This document shows positions 56,398-61,857 of a stretch of 64,000 bases of DNA, piece after piece. Position numbers and translations under genes: made by a program. Position 1 is the first letter of the stretch; the number at the start of each line of letters is the position of its first letter. Below the pieces are notes generated by a model. It was not told the DNA's origin, did no database searches, and was given only the letters and a program-made list of their open reading frames with translations. The DNA is taken from the NCBI GenBank assembly GCA_002170165.1, contig NHFY01000012.1:1-64000 (forward strand), in the 5' to 3' direction. The DNA comes from Flavobacteriales bacterium TMED123 (GTDB lineage Bacteria > Bacteroidota > Bacteroidia > Flavobacteriales > BACL11).

Positions 56398-58845
56398 TTA
56401 AAAACTTAAAATCAGTTTGGCATTAATTTGCCTTGCAGTAAGGTAATTAGGAACAGCATATTGTCTTCCCGTAACATCCGACACCCAAAGATAAGAAACC
56501 GTATTGTTAATTTGCAAAAGATTAAACACTTCAAAGCTTAGCCAAATGGCATTAAAATGCCTAAAAAAGCTACTTTTCTTTTCTCCCTCTTTTATCAGTT
56601 CTTTCGAAAATCCAATATCCACTCTTCTGTATGCAGGGATGCGCAATATATCTTGATGTTTTTCCGATTTTGGAGGGCCAAAGGTAAGACCAGTTCCATA
56701 CACTAAATTCAAATGCATTTTATAGCTAGGGTTTTTAGGTATGTAATCCTGAAAATAAAGCGTAAAATTTACCCTCTGATCGGTAGGGCGGGGGATGTAT
56801 CCTGCCTCTTGTCTATTGCCATTTTCATCCGTATAATAGTCACCAACTATATCTTCTTCCGTTTTCATAAAAGATAAACTAGCCCATGATTCTATTCCAG
56901 GAACAAACTCTCCATTTATCTTCATGTCTATTCCACTTGCATAACCATTTGATGTCTCAAAAGGCAAATACCTTATTCGTACATTATCAACTTTATATGG
57001 AATCAAATTTTCCAATTGCTTATAATAAAGTTCACTTACCCACTTAAATGGCCGTCCCCATGCATAAAACAAATAATCTGCTCCAAGAATAAAATGAGTT
57101 GATTTTTGCGCTTTTATATCTCTGTTTATCCTACCATCAAAATCTCTTAATTCTTTGTAAAATGCCGACTGATAATAAACGCCACTTGCGCCTTTAAATA
57201 CTACATCTTTTTCCCAGTTTGGGATATAAGCAAGTGTAAGTCTTGGGCTTAAAATAAATTCTTCATTAAAAGTCCAATAATTTCCTCTTACTCCTGATGT
57301 GAGAGAAAAATTTCCAATATCTTTTGTAAACTGCATATAGCCTGAATTTCTATATGAGGATAAGTTAATTTGGGTTTTCAACAAATCATTTACAGATACT
57401 ACAATTGGAGGCTGCAAGTTAGGGTTTGTATAGCCTACCGAATCAGGCGTATGTGGCAAAGTAAATCCTGAAGAGTCAATTAAATTCCACTCACTTATTT
57501 TATCTTCTATTTCTTCCTTTTGCATTCTTAGTCCCCATGCTAATTCAGCGTCTTTTGTATTGTATTTCCCACTATGCTGAAAGTTCATTACGCTAGCATT
57601 CAAACTATTCCTAGCATGATTAATATAAGTACCAATTCCTCTGTCAAACTTTACATCACCAAAACTTTCACTCCCCAAACTATTATCTAGCTGATAAAGC
57701 CAATATTGCCCCCTTATATCAAAGTTCTCTTGCTCAAAAGTGCTAAAAGCGGAAGCAGTAAATTTTAAATCTAATTTTTCATTTGGATGGTAAGAGCTGC
57801 TCAAAGCACCAAAAAAAGTATTGTACTCATCCACTTCCTGCCCATCTAAAAAGATAGTGAGCTTCAAAGCTTCATTCAATGTGCCGAATTCTGTATCTCT
57901 TTTTTGTGGTACCATCCTGTAAGTGTTATTGGATATATTTCCCAAAAAGCTAATATCCCAATCTGAGCTTATATCATATTTCACAAAGGTTTGAATATCG
58001 GTAAATTTAGGTTTGTATTCCGCTTCTGTATCTAAACTACTAAGTATATACTGTGTGGTTTTTCTTCTAATTCCTGTCATAAAACTGAAACGGTTGTTTT
58101 TACTGCTACCTTCAAAATGTGCACTTCCACCTAGCAAACTCATATTTAAGGAAGCGCCAAATTTTTTAGGTTTCTTGTATTTTATATCTAGTACAGAAGA
58201 CATTTTATCACCATACTTTGCTTCAAATCCTCCTGCCGAAAATAAAATACTTCCTACCATATCAGGATTAATAAAGCTCAATCCTTCTTGTTGCCCTGAT
58301 CTTACTAAAAAAGGTCTATACACTTCTATTCCATTTACATATACCAAGTTTTCATCAAAATTTCCACCTCTAACTGAATATTGAGAACTCAATTCATTGG
58401 CAGAGCTTACTCCAGGTAGTGTTTTTAATAATGCCTCAACTCCTCCAGATGAGTTTGGAATTACTGTAGCATGTTTTGGTTTTATCCTGGTTAGTGTCTT
58501 CTTTCTATTTTGTTTGTCTTCAACAATAATTTCATTTTTAATGAAACTTTTGGTAATCAGTTGCTGATTCAATACATATTCCTGCCCTTTTTTTAGCATA
58601 GGAATCCTAATTTTTACAGTTTCATAGCCAATAAAAGTAAAGCTTATAAGATACGATCGGTTGGCTTTAAGTTGCAATAAATAAGCTCCCTTTTCATTTG
58701 TAGAAGTGCCAATTTGCTTTCCAGTCACCGATACATTTACCGCTTCAATTGGTAAATTTTTCTCATCTGTTACCACTCCTATTAGTGTTTGGGAAAATAA
58801 AAGATGAGGAAATAGAAAAAATAATATGAAAAGTCGTTTCAACAT
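56398..58845 (-). CDS. TonB-dependent outer membrane receptor
   Basis: An 815-residue outer membrane receptor. The frame opens at 58920, but I take ATG 58845. It gives the signal peptide MLKRLFILFFLFPHLLFSQ, and the longer form would overlap the preceding gene. A carboxypeptidase-regulatory-like domain (about 20-105) is followed by a plug (about 110-240) containing LLKTLPGVSSANE, YSVRGGNFDENLVYVNG and GGFEAKYGDKMSS. A 22-stranded barrel ends in LILSF. There is no SusD partner beside it, so it is not a classic glycan PUL. The ligand is unknown. It is 16 bases behind the interrupted CarboxypepD-like gene. Confidence 0.92.
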   Translation of the reverse strand: MLKRLFILFFLFPHLLFSQTLIGVVTDEKNLPIEAVNVSVTGKQIGTSTNEKGAYLLQLKANRSYLISFTFIGYETVKIRIPMLKKGQEYVLNQQLITKSFIKNEIIVEDKQNRKKTLTRIKPKHATVIPNSSGGVEALLKTLPGVSSANELSSQYSVRGGNFDENLVYVNGIEVYRPFLVRSGQQEGLSFINPDMVGSILFSAGGFEAKYGDKMSSVLDIKYKKPKKFGASLNMSLLGGSAHFEGSSKNNRFSFMTGIRRKTTQYILSSLDTEAEYKPKFTDIQTFVKYDISSDWDISFLGNISNNTYRMVPQKRDTEFGTLNEALKLTIFLDGQEVDEYNTFFGALSSSYHPNEKLDLKFTASAFSTFEQENFDIRGQYWLYQLDNSLGSESFGDVKFDRGIGTYINHARNSLNASVMNFQHSGKYNTKDAELAWGLRMQKEEIEDKISEWNLIDSSGFTLPHTPDSVGYTNPNLQPPIVVSVNDLLKTQINLSSYRNSGYMQFTKDIGNFSLTSGVRGNYWTFNEEFILSPRLTLAYIPNWEKDVVFKGASGVYYQSAFYKELRDFDGRINRDIKAQKSTHFILGADYLFYAWGRPFKWVSELYYKQLENLIPYKVDNVRIRYLPFETSNGYASGIDMKINGEFVPGIESWASLSFMKTEEDIVGDYYTDENGNRQEAGYIPRPTDQRVNFTLYFQDYIPKNPSYKMHLNLVYGTGLTFGPPKSEKHQDILRIPAYRRVDIGFSKELIKEGEKKSSFFRHFNAIWLSFEVFNLLQINNTVSYLWVSDVTGRQYAVPNYLTARQINAKLILSF

Positions 58846-58861: not shown

Positions 58862-59482
58862 TCAATCTTTTCTTTTGAAATCCCCATTCTTCCAAGCTTC
58901 AATAAAGGCTGCCCAAGCAAAAGGATTCAGAATAGGAATAAAGGTTACTCCACCAGACATGATGTATTGTTGTCTTTCCATATCATTCATAAAACTTTTG
59001 AAATTTTCTTTTCCGTCATTGGGCATTTGCGCAATCATAATATCTACAAAAGCATTATCTATATTCTTTTTTGCTCTTTCAATCTCATCATCAGGTATAT
59101 CAGTAGTTAGAAATGCTTGTTTAAATTGTTCTCTGCTTGGTCAAGGATACACCTTTGTTTCTTTTAGTATTATGGTATCGCTTGCTAATTTTTGAACTAC
59201 TGTGATAAAATTTTCATCTGTTTTCATTGGAATGATGTATCTAGCCCTTTTGTAGCCTAAGCAAGAAAATATTATAGTATCACCTTTGTTCGCAACCAAA
59301 GAGAAATAACCATAGAAATCACTAATTGTTCCTTGCTCTTTGTTTTTAATAAGCACATTGGCAAAAGGAATGGTAAGCAAACTATCAGTTGAAACCAATA
59401 TACCAGTGAGTTGCACGCTTTTATCCTGAGAAAAAGCATTAAAGCTAAAAGCAATAAATAATATGATGGGTATTTTTCTCAT
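58862..59482 (-). pseudogene. CarboxypepD-regulatory-like exported protein interrupted by one in-frame TGA
   Basis: Read through, this is a 206-residue protein. The signal peptide is residues 1-18. A carboxypeptidase-regulatory-like domain follows (QLTGILVSTDSLLTIPFANV, GYFSLVANKGDTIIFSCLGY), with a C-terminal region of about 92 residues (PSREQFKQAFLTTDIPDDEI ... NPFAWAAFIEAWKNGDFKRK). Codon 114 (59143-59141) is TGA. From memory, relatives read Tyr-Pro-Trp-Pro at this point, so TGG became TGA. No frameshift is needed, and the downstream part stays fully coding in the same frame. Nonsense mutation, assembly error or read-through are all possible. It is the first gene of a run with the TonB receptor and rlmD. 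Confidence 0.8.
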
Positions 59483-59496
59483 AATAAAAAAACAAC

Positions 59497-59504
59497 CAAA
59501 AATA
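59497..59504 (-). promoter_or_regulatory. -7 promoter box for the interrupted gene and TonB receptor
   Basis: TATTTTTG on the minus strand, an exact match, 14 bases before the ATG at 59482. An intact promoter argues that transcription of the whole run persists despite the in-frame TGA. Confidence 0.55.
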
Positions 59505-59600: not shown

Positions 59601-60020
59601 ATGAAAAAAGTATTGATAGTTTGCACAGGTAATTCCTGTCGTTCGCAAATGGCAGAGGGTTGGATTCGTCAATTTGCAAAAGATAAAGTTGAAGTTTATA
59701 GTGCAGGAACACATCCAGAGCCTGTAAATTCTGTCGCCATCAAAGTAATGCAAAGCCTTTGTGTAGATATATCGCAACATCAATCTAACCTACTTGATGA
59801 GTATTTGAATTTAGATTTTGATTATGTAATAACGGTATGTGATAGCGCAAAAGAGCTTTGTCCTACTTTCCCATCAGCTAGTAAGGTAATTCATAAAAGT
59901 TTTCCCGATCCTGCAAAAGCAAAAGGAACAGATGAGGAAGTTTTAGCAGTTTATAAAAAGGTGCGTGATATGCTCAAATCTTTTTGTAAGGAATTTCTGC
60001 AAAAGGAATTAGGTATTTAA
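59601..60020 (+). CDS. arsC: Arsenate reductase, thioredoxin-coupled LMW-phosphatase type
   Basis: A 139-residue cytoplasmic protein with a low-molecular-weight tyrosine phosphatase fold. The P-loop is C8-TGNSC-R14-S. D103 in SFPDPAKAKG is the general acid. Two further cysteines at C80 and C87 give the same spacing as the C10/C82/C89 redox relay of the staphylococcal pI258 arsenate reductase. This supports a thioredoxin-dependent arsenate reductase rather than a plain phosphatase. There is no arsR, arsB or acr3 gene nearby, so this is an isolated gene. The following 142 bases hold no gene or signal I can support. Confidence 0.88.
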   Translation: MKKVLIVCTGNSCRSQMAEGWIRQFAKDKVEVYSAGTHPEPVNSVAIKVMQSLCVDISQHQSNLLDEYLNLDFDYVITVCDSAKELCPTFPSASKVIHKSFPDPAKAKGTDEEVLAVYKKVRDMLKSFCKEFLQKELGI

Positions 60021-60162
60021 TTCAATGAAAGTATTTTTGTTTCGATTAAAATTCCAGAATAGCATTTCCAAACTTCATAAAAATTTTACGAATCATTGCT
60101 CGGAGAATCAATTTATGAATAAGAAATAAATTTTTCTTTACATGGTTTTTTTGGACCAGCAG

Positions 60163-61857
60163 CTAACGAAAAAATTCAGCCGTATAGTTTTTTTTATTTT
60201 TCAGTTTGTCGCTTACTGTTAGTTTAAAGGTGTGCTTTCCAGTCTTAAAATCTTTTGGAATGTCAAATGTCAATAATTTCCTTTTATAATCATATTCCAT
60301 TAAAATCCATTTACCATCTATTTCCGATCTAAAATTGTCTATACCACTTTCTTTGTCTTCAATAGTGCATTTAATACTTGTTTGTGTATTGATTTTTTTT
60401 CCAGGATAAATATTTACCCCTTTGATAATTGGATTGATGGTGTCTGCTATTATACAAAAGTTACCAAATCTTATCACCTTTGCCGAGAGCATGTTATTTC
60501 TCCAAATATTACCCATATACGAGAAATTACCCTTCTCATCTACTTTAGCAACATATACTTTTTCCTTTAATTGCTTTGGTATTTCTGCTTTTAATGAAAT
60601 TACAAAACTTTTATGCACAGGCACATAATCAAAATGACACTGATGTACTGCTCCATAAGTACCTTCAATAGTATCTAGCTGGTCATATTCAAAATTCAAA
60701 TCCTCATAAAGCGCAAAATTTCCCATATGCAAATGAAAATCCTTGTCCTTGAAAAGGTTAGGTTTCATATAACTGAAATGTTGCGAGAAGGGACTAAAGG
60801 TCATGCTATTTTCATTTTCCATTTGCTCAGTTGTACTCTTTACTTTGAAGGATAAGATGCTTTTGTTTTGTGCAAAATCCAACACTTCAAATTGTACTAG
60901 ATGTGTGGTGTCATCTGTGAATTCAACTATTCCTTGTTTAAGCATTTTCTGATAAACAGATAGTTTGTTGTTAGCTAATCTGTAGCATCTGTGGAATTTG
61001 CTTTTGTTTAGACTTTTTTCTTTGTAATCAATATGCGCATTGATGTATCTGCTTTCAGCAAATGAAAACTCATCCATTTGAAAATGATATATCAAATTGC
61101 TGTCAATAAATAATTTTATGGCATATACACCATTTTTATTATATGCATTGTTTAGTTTGTCAAAGGTGGAGATGCTAAATGCGATTTTCCCTTTTACAAT
61201 AGGAACCTCATCTTTGATAGTGTATTGATTCTCATCTTTTTTTAGAATATAACTTTTATCTTGAAATTCTCTATCAATGCTGCCATCTATGGCGTATAAC
61301 TTTATCTTGCTAATTGTTGGTTTGATATTATCTGCTACATCAAAAAATTGCAAAGGATTGATAGGGTGTTCTGTTTTTGTATTTCTGATCTCAAAATGAA
61401 GATGTGCACCAGCACTAGAGCCAGTATTTCCTGAAAAGCCAATCACTTCACCTCTTTTTACAATAAACTTATCCTTTGGTGGGAAAAGTTGAATTTCAAA
61501 ATTTTCTTTTTTATATTGATTTTCAACTACATAATTGTTTATTGATTCAGAAAATTTTTGCAAATGAGCATAAACAGAAGTTTTGCCATCAGGATGAGTA
61601 ATGTAAAGCGCTTTCCCATAGCCCCAAGTTGACACTTTAATTCTAGATACATACCCATCGGCAATACTATATACTTTTTGTCCTTCTACTCCTTCTGTTT
61701 TTATGTCAATTCCAGCATGAAAATGATTGCCTCTAAGCTCACCAAAAGTGCCTGAAAGCAGGATCTTAAAACCAACAGGAGGATGATAATCTTGAGGAAA
61801 AGCTGACAATGTAAGGGTGGCTAAAAAACCAAAAAAAATAAAAAATCTACTAAACAT
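60163..61857 (-). CDS. Exported M23-family metallopeptidase
   Basis: A 564-residue envelope peptidase. The signal peptide is residues 1-20. The LytM/M23 domain (about 25-170) has zinc ligands H47 and D51 (NHFHAGIDIK) and the pair H152-x-H154 (GAHLHFEIR), so it is catalytically complete. It probably cuts peptidoglycan cross-bridges during growth or division. Residues about 175-564 are a beta-rich exported region of unknown role, ending in an Ig-like domain (KGVNIYPGKKINTQTSIKCT, FKLTVSDKLKNKK). Single gene, divergent from the zapA unit. Confidence 0.92.
   Translation of the reverse strand: MFSRFFIFFGFLATLTLSAFPQDYHPPVGFKILLSGTFGELRGNHFHAGIDIKTEGVEGQKVYSIADGYVSRIKVSTWGYGKALYITHPDGKTSVYAHLQKFSESINNYVVENQYKKENFEIQLFPPKDKFIVKRGEVIGFSGNTGSSAGAHLHFEIRNTKTEHPINPLQFFDVADNIKPTISKIKLYAIDGSIDREFQDKSYILKKDENQYTIKDEVPIVKGKIAFSISTFDKLNNAYNKNGVYAIKLFIDSNLIYHFQMDEFSFAESRYINAHIDYKEKSLNKSKFHRCYRLANNKLSVYQKMLKQGIVEFTDDTTHLVQFEVLDFAQNKSILSFKVKSTTEQMENENSMTFSPFSQHFSYMKPNLFKDKDFHLHMGNFALYEDLNFEYDQLDTIEGTYGAVHQCHFDYVPVHKSFVISLKAEIPKQLKEKVYVAKVDEKGNFSYMGNIWRNNMLSAKVIRFGNFCIIADTINPIIKGVNIYPGKKINTQTSIKCTIEDKESGIDNFRSEIDGKWILMEYDYKRKLLTFDIPKDFKTGKHTFKLTVSDKLKNKKNYTAEFFR

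Follow-up and report, generated by a model that had tools for sequence, protein, structure and literature searches.

N-terminal domains of the CarbopepD_reg type are widespread in the outer-membrane proteins of Bacteroidota. A subunit of the BAM complex of Flavobacterium johnsoniae, BamP, has a layout of an N-terminal folded domain, a linker and a three-helix C-terminal domain (PMC12611786). BamP was reported to be restricted to the Flavobacteriaceae, and the authors of that study considered that proteins of analogous mechanism may exist, so far unrecognised, in other Bacteroidota (PMC12611786). The gene examined here encodes a product of similar size to BamP (206 versus 251 amino acids), and the two proteins are alike in having a CarboxypepD_reg-like domain at the N-terminus and, after it, a largely helical C-terminal part (BamP structure, PDB 9n2d chain E). 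They are unlike in that the similarity ends at about residue 116 and the C-terminal parts are unmatched (hhalign probability 1.6%). The NCBIfam model for BamP (NF053692) gave 31.7 bits against a cut-off of 230 and covered residues 3 to 113 only. Membership of the BamP family was rejected, as NCBIfam, a PDB sequence search, a profile-profile alignment and a fold search matched only the common N-terminal domain.

The reading frame of this gene is interrupted by a TGA codon, and two types of described system offer a comparison. Recent nonsense pseudogenes of streamlining bacterial lineages are alike in being one base away from a sense codon, in having a frame that is otherwise intact and recently constrained, in losing a conserved part of the product, in having intact orthologues at the same locus in close relatives and in being wholly absent from sister genera; they are unlike this gene in that the stop is known here from the consensus of one genome. 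Programmed UGA read-through is alike in the position of a single UGA after the first domain and in the conservation of the downstream frame, but differs in that the stop here is not conserved, no stimulating structure was found and the decoding machinery is unchanged. Our analysis indicated that the stop is probably a recent single-base nonsense mutation at Trp114, and that the affected gene is dispensable in a small-genome family of the Flavobacteriales.

Results

An in-frame TGA within a conserved gene

The following features of the gene were defined in the window, which is the whole 64,000-nucleotide stretch of DNA that was analysed.

58862..59482, minus strand: interrupted gene, encoding 206 residues when codon 114 is taken as Trp, with stop-free full-length homologues in three congeners
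59141..59143, minus strand: in-frame TGA followed by a C, codon 114 of the interrupted gene, at which all relatives have Trp
59153..59407, minus strand: CarbopepD_reg_2 domain, spanning residues 26-110 and lying entirely before the stop (Pfam PF13715, 45.4 bits against a cut-off of 32.2)
58865..59140, minus strand: cut-off C-terminal part, residues 115-206, helical by a low-confidence prediction, ending in AWxxFIEAWKNGDFK

The minus-strand open reading frame at 59482-59141 encodes 113 amino acids and terminates in the TGA at 59143-59141. A first-pass annotation had described an open extension of 92 codons past this stop, and both the coordinates and the extension were confirmed by translation of the frame and then by homology: 92 intact codons continue in the same frame to a TGA at 58864-58862. 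The chance of a stop-free run of this length is p ~7e-4 at the composition of the window. Alignment of the joined 206-residue product to homologues, as that annotation had proposed, gave a full-length match, with end-to-end identities of 79-81% to the three congeners. The full-length match and the low chance probability indicated that the extension is not a product of chance. At the 3' end of the gene, the final TGA is directly followed by a TAA, while the congeners have TAA alone; a 3-base difference accounts for this second TGA.

The product is small and looks secreted, with a signal-peptide-like start (as judged by eye from the sequence) ahead of a CarbopepD_reg_2 domain that scored above the Pfam gathering cut-off. 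An invariant Pro-Trp-Pro (PWP) lies between the N-terminal domain and the C-terminal part. The structure model is weak past residue 110, with pLDDT values of 40-60 over most of this region. The premature stop cuts off 92 residues, some of which are at invariant positions.

A search with the family profile detected a match in 324/395 Bacteroidia genomes, with one match per genome, and a literature search on the gene family found nothing. A TonB-dependent receptor like that of the window adjoins the gene in 29/46 loci and an M23 peptidase gene does so in 13/46, these counts being rough as many of the loci are short and the window itself is included. BamP was detected in 11 of the 395 sampled genomes, all in a single family (f3). 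Among the matches listed, none of the f3 genomes carried the interrupted gene's family, which was thus not seen together with BamP. This complementary distribution is a lead rather than a demonstration.

Codon 114 in relatives and the age of the stop

The first-pass annotation gave Tyr-Pro-Trp-Pro as the sequence of relatives at the site of the stop, and this was found to be right. In a codon-by-codon alignment, codon 114 was TGG in all 17 homologues, and Trp was present at this position in 47/47 other sequences of a larger homologue set that included the congeners. Codon 114 of the window differs from that of the congeners by one base, in keeping with the proposal that a single change of TGG to TGA accounts for the stop. 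No homologue ending naturally at the Tyr-Pro was found. Of the 324 Bacteroidia genomes with a match, about 150 were listed, and among these the stop was present in the window genome only. The gene was intact with Trp at codon 114 in each of the three congeners (G001-G003), and the neighbouring genes were the same in G002 and G003.

A comparison of 464 kb of the window's genome with congener G003 yielded 98 gene pairs (35,536 residues), within which the TGA at codon 114 was the sole stop inside a gene body, and split genes were not detected. Apparent stops in the M23 peptidase gene and a coiled-coil neighbour were located upstream of the start codons used in the window and were rejected as interruptions. 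A further apparent stop, in a gene on contig C13, falls close to where the alignment runs out and appears to mark a gene that ends a little sooner.

Nei-Gojobori dN/dS values against the three congeners were 0.05-0.08 for the part downstream of the stop and 0.09-0.10 for the upstream part, values that are rough since synonymous sites are near saturation. These values and inspection of the frame gave no sign of relaxed selection or of a second disabling change beyond the stop. The near-equal constraint on the two sides indicated that the change is very recent, or else a consensus error. If real, the stop would have arisen in a small last part of the branch. As a mark of downstream damage is absent, the allele is claimed only as very recent and not as an established pseudogene.

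Loss of the gene and decay at the same locus

The surroundings of the gene contain the following features.

59497..59504, minus strand: Bacteroidota -7-like box TATTTTTG (TAnnTTTG), a sequence match, kept in three congeners
56398..58842, minus strand: TonB-dependent receptor, a conserved neighbour whose N-terminal domain is of the kind present in the interrupted gene
59601..60020, plus strand: ArsC-like gene of the low-molecular-weight phosphatase family, a divergent neighbour
60163..61857, minus strand: M23 peptidase gene, an upstream neighbour with conserved synteny

An exact -7 box had been reported ahead of the gene and a TonB receptor directly after it. Both were located: the box is at 59504-59497 and is kept in 3/3 congeners, with the TAnnTTTG motif occurring 120 times in the window, and the receptor starts with an ATG at 58842, 19 nt past the final stop. 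Following the ArsC gene, positions 60018-60162 contain a remnant of a glyoxalase-like domain, of about 48 residues with four in-frame stops, the remainder of the domain being missing. Two congener loci (L031 and L032) encode an intact ArsC-glyoxalase fusion of 262-278 amino acids; the ArsC genes of five sampled loci of other genera are without the glyoxalase-like domain. The state of this four-stop remnant indicated that decay has occurred at the same locus.

Within the family of the window genome (f1), the gene was detected in 4/52 genomes, all of its own genus. It was absent from the 48 genomes of 14 other genera, some of which are incomplete, and the most complete bins (98-99%) agreed. The adjacent TonB receptor was retained in 44 of the 52 genomes. 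Furthermore, 17 loci were examined in which the M23, ArsC and TonB genes are in order, with the small gene missing between them. As 14 sister genera are without the gene and yet keep its neighbours, these results indicated that it is dispensable in this family; one loss common to the 14 genera would be enough to explain the absence. In loci of other genera of the family (L143-L169), the TonB receptor is still beside the M23/ArsC pair without its small partner gene, and the ability of the receptor to hold its place indicated that it is independent of the small gene in f1.

Consensus error as an alternative explanation

An error of assembly or sequencing in the consensus, or a minor strain variant, in a species that carries an ordinary full-length gene, is a serious but less likely explanation of the stop. 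In its favour, the source is a marine metagenome bin that is 73.6% complete and 2.6% contaminated, the constraint past the stop is normal and the gene is otherwise undamaged. The error rate that it implies, a single false nonsense codon in ~100 kb of coding DNA, would not be extreme. Against this, the 64 kb window is without an ambiguous base, as compared to many single N in some contaminant contigs of the same bin, which suggests that the base call was undoubted. Neither a further gene-body stop nor a split gene was present in the 98 shared pairs, and the affected gene is one that is absent from sister genera, a choice for which an error has no reason.

Decoding of the UGA codon

In E. coli, UGA is the leakiest stop codon; its misreading yields mainly Trp and amounts to a few percent in some contexts, and at one reporter position the relative signal was 0.7-6%, varying by stop codon (PMC11126739). 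Functional read-through of codon 114, giving a short single-domain form and a long form, is improbable. This leakiness, the conservation of the downstream frame and a stop placed just past the N-terminal domain are in its favour, but the location of the stop is already accounted for by the location of the Trp, and a stop at this codon was present in no relative (17 codon-aligned homologues, the 47-sequence set and the matches listed, about 150 of 324). RNA folding at and after the TGA detected no unusually stable structure (z-scores of +2.1, -1.1 and +1.1), and an Rfam search around the stop gave only chance-level matches, with none near a gathering score. RF2 is present and intact in the window's genome. 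The tRNA-Trp, located on a contig (C28) with a host-like GC content of 0.35-0.37 around the tRNA, has a CCA anticodon and a fully paired anticodon stem; a recently described mechanism that involves a short-stem tRNA-Trp (PMC13092985) is hence not applicable. A variant of the read-through explanation, in which the TGA is retained on purpose so that a short form is made together with a small regulated amount of the full-length form by UGA misreading, is given even less credence. The level of the long form would in that case depend on the efficiency of termination.

Insertion of selenocysteine at the codon-114 UGA was also considered and was dropped as scarcely credible. The bin does contain a tRNA-Sec (67.6 bits), SelB (434.6 bits) and a SelA-like gene, but these were found only on contig C63 (locus L059, 1-7672), in a bin whose host part is incomplete, and C63 looks like a foreign contig contaminating the bin: its GC content is 0.487 with many single N, compared to a GC content of ~0.33 and no N in the window. 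An ORF on this contig contains a UPYC motif, the U of which is an in-frame TGA. A search of 10 relatives found no SelB over the cut-off. Furthermore, the relatives have Trp and never Cys at codon 114 (47/47), and no hairpin follows the UGA.

Reassignment of UGA to Trp, whether complete or under way, merits almost no weight, in agreement with the first-pass annotation: TGA terminates fewer genes of the window than either other stop codon (4/47 genes, counting the interrupted gene), but three other genes, confirmed as 346-1242, rimO and bshA, end in TGA as a normal stop, 345 other Trp sites are retained as Trp in the G003 comparison when the standard code is applied, codon 114 being the only site with TGA, RF2 is intact, and no tRNA with a UCA anticodon was found besides the foreign-looking tRNA-Sec. 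Overall, no sign of a special mode of decoding was seen.

Discussion

A fresh nonsense mutation, which agrees with all of the data, is ranked first among the explanations of this stop. A consensus or assembly error or minor variant, whose fit is almost as good, is second, and functional read-through, for which there is no specific support, is a distant third. What counts against a fresh nonsense mutation is that the downstream constraint and the conserved promoter box are equally expected of a functional gene, whether its stop is read through or is a miscalled base.

According to the favoured explanation, a single G-to-A change would have converted the conserved Trp114 codon to TGA recently in the lineage of the window. 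Normal termination at this codon would produce a 113-residue stub with a complete CarbopepD_reg domain but with neither the PWP motif nor the helical C-terminal part, and this stub protein is most likely non-functional. As misreading of UGA in E. coli inserts mostly Trp, any read-through at codon 114 would yield the native protein. Low-level misreading by the near-cognate tRNA-Trp(CCA) would insert the native residue, such that the full-length protein may still be made in trace amounts. Of the possible nonsense changes, a TGA in place of a Trp codon is the least severe, and the best explanation of the allele is an early, possibly leaky, loss of function. The allele probably represents an early stage of a loss that is already finished in sister genera.

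As a nonsense allele, this stop is ordinary. It captures, or resembles, the opening step of a loss that the other genera of the family have already been through; the neighbouring ArsC-glyoxalase remnant illustrates later decay, while the interrupted frame past the stop is still undamaged. The gene itself is more interesting than its stop, being widespread in Bacteroidia, unnamed beyond its N-terminal domain and often paired with a TonB receptor.
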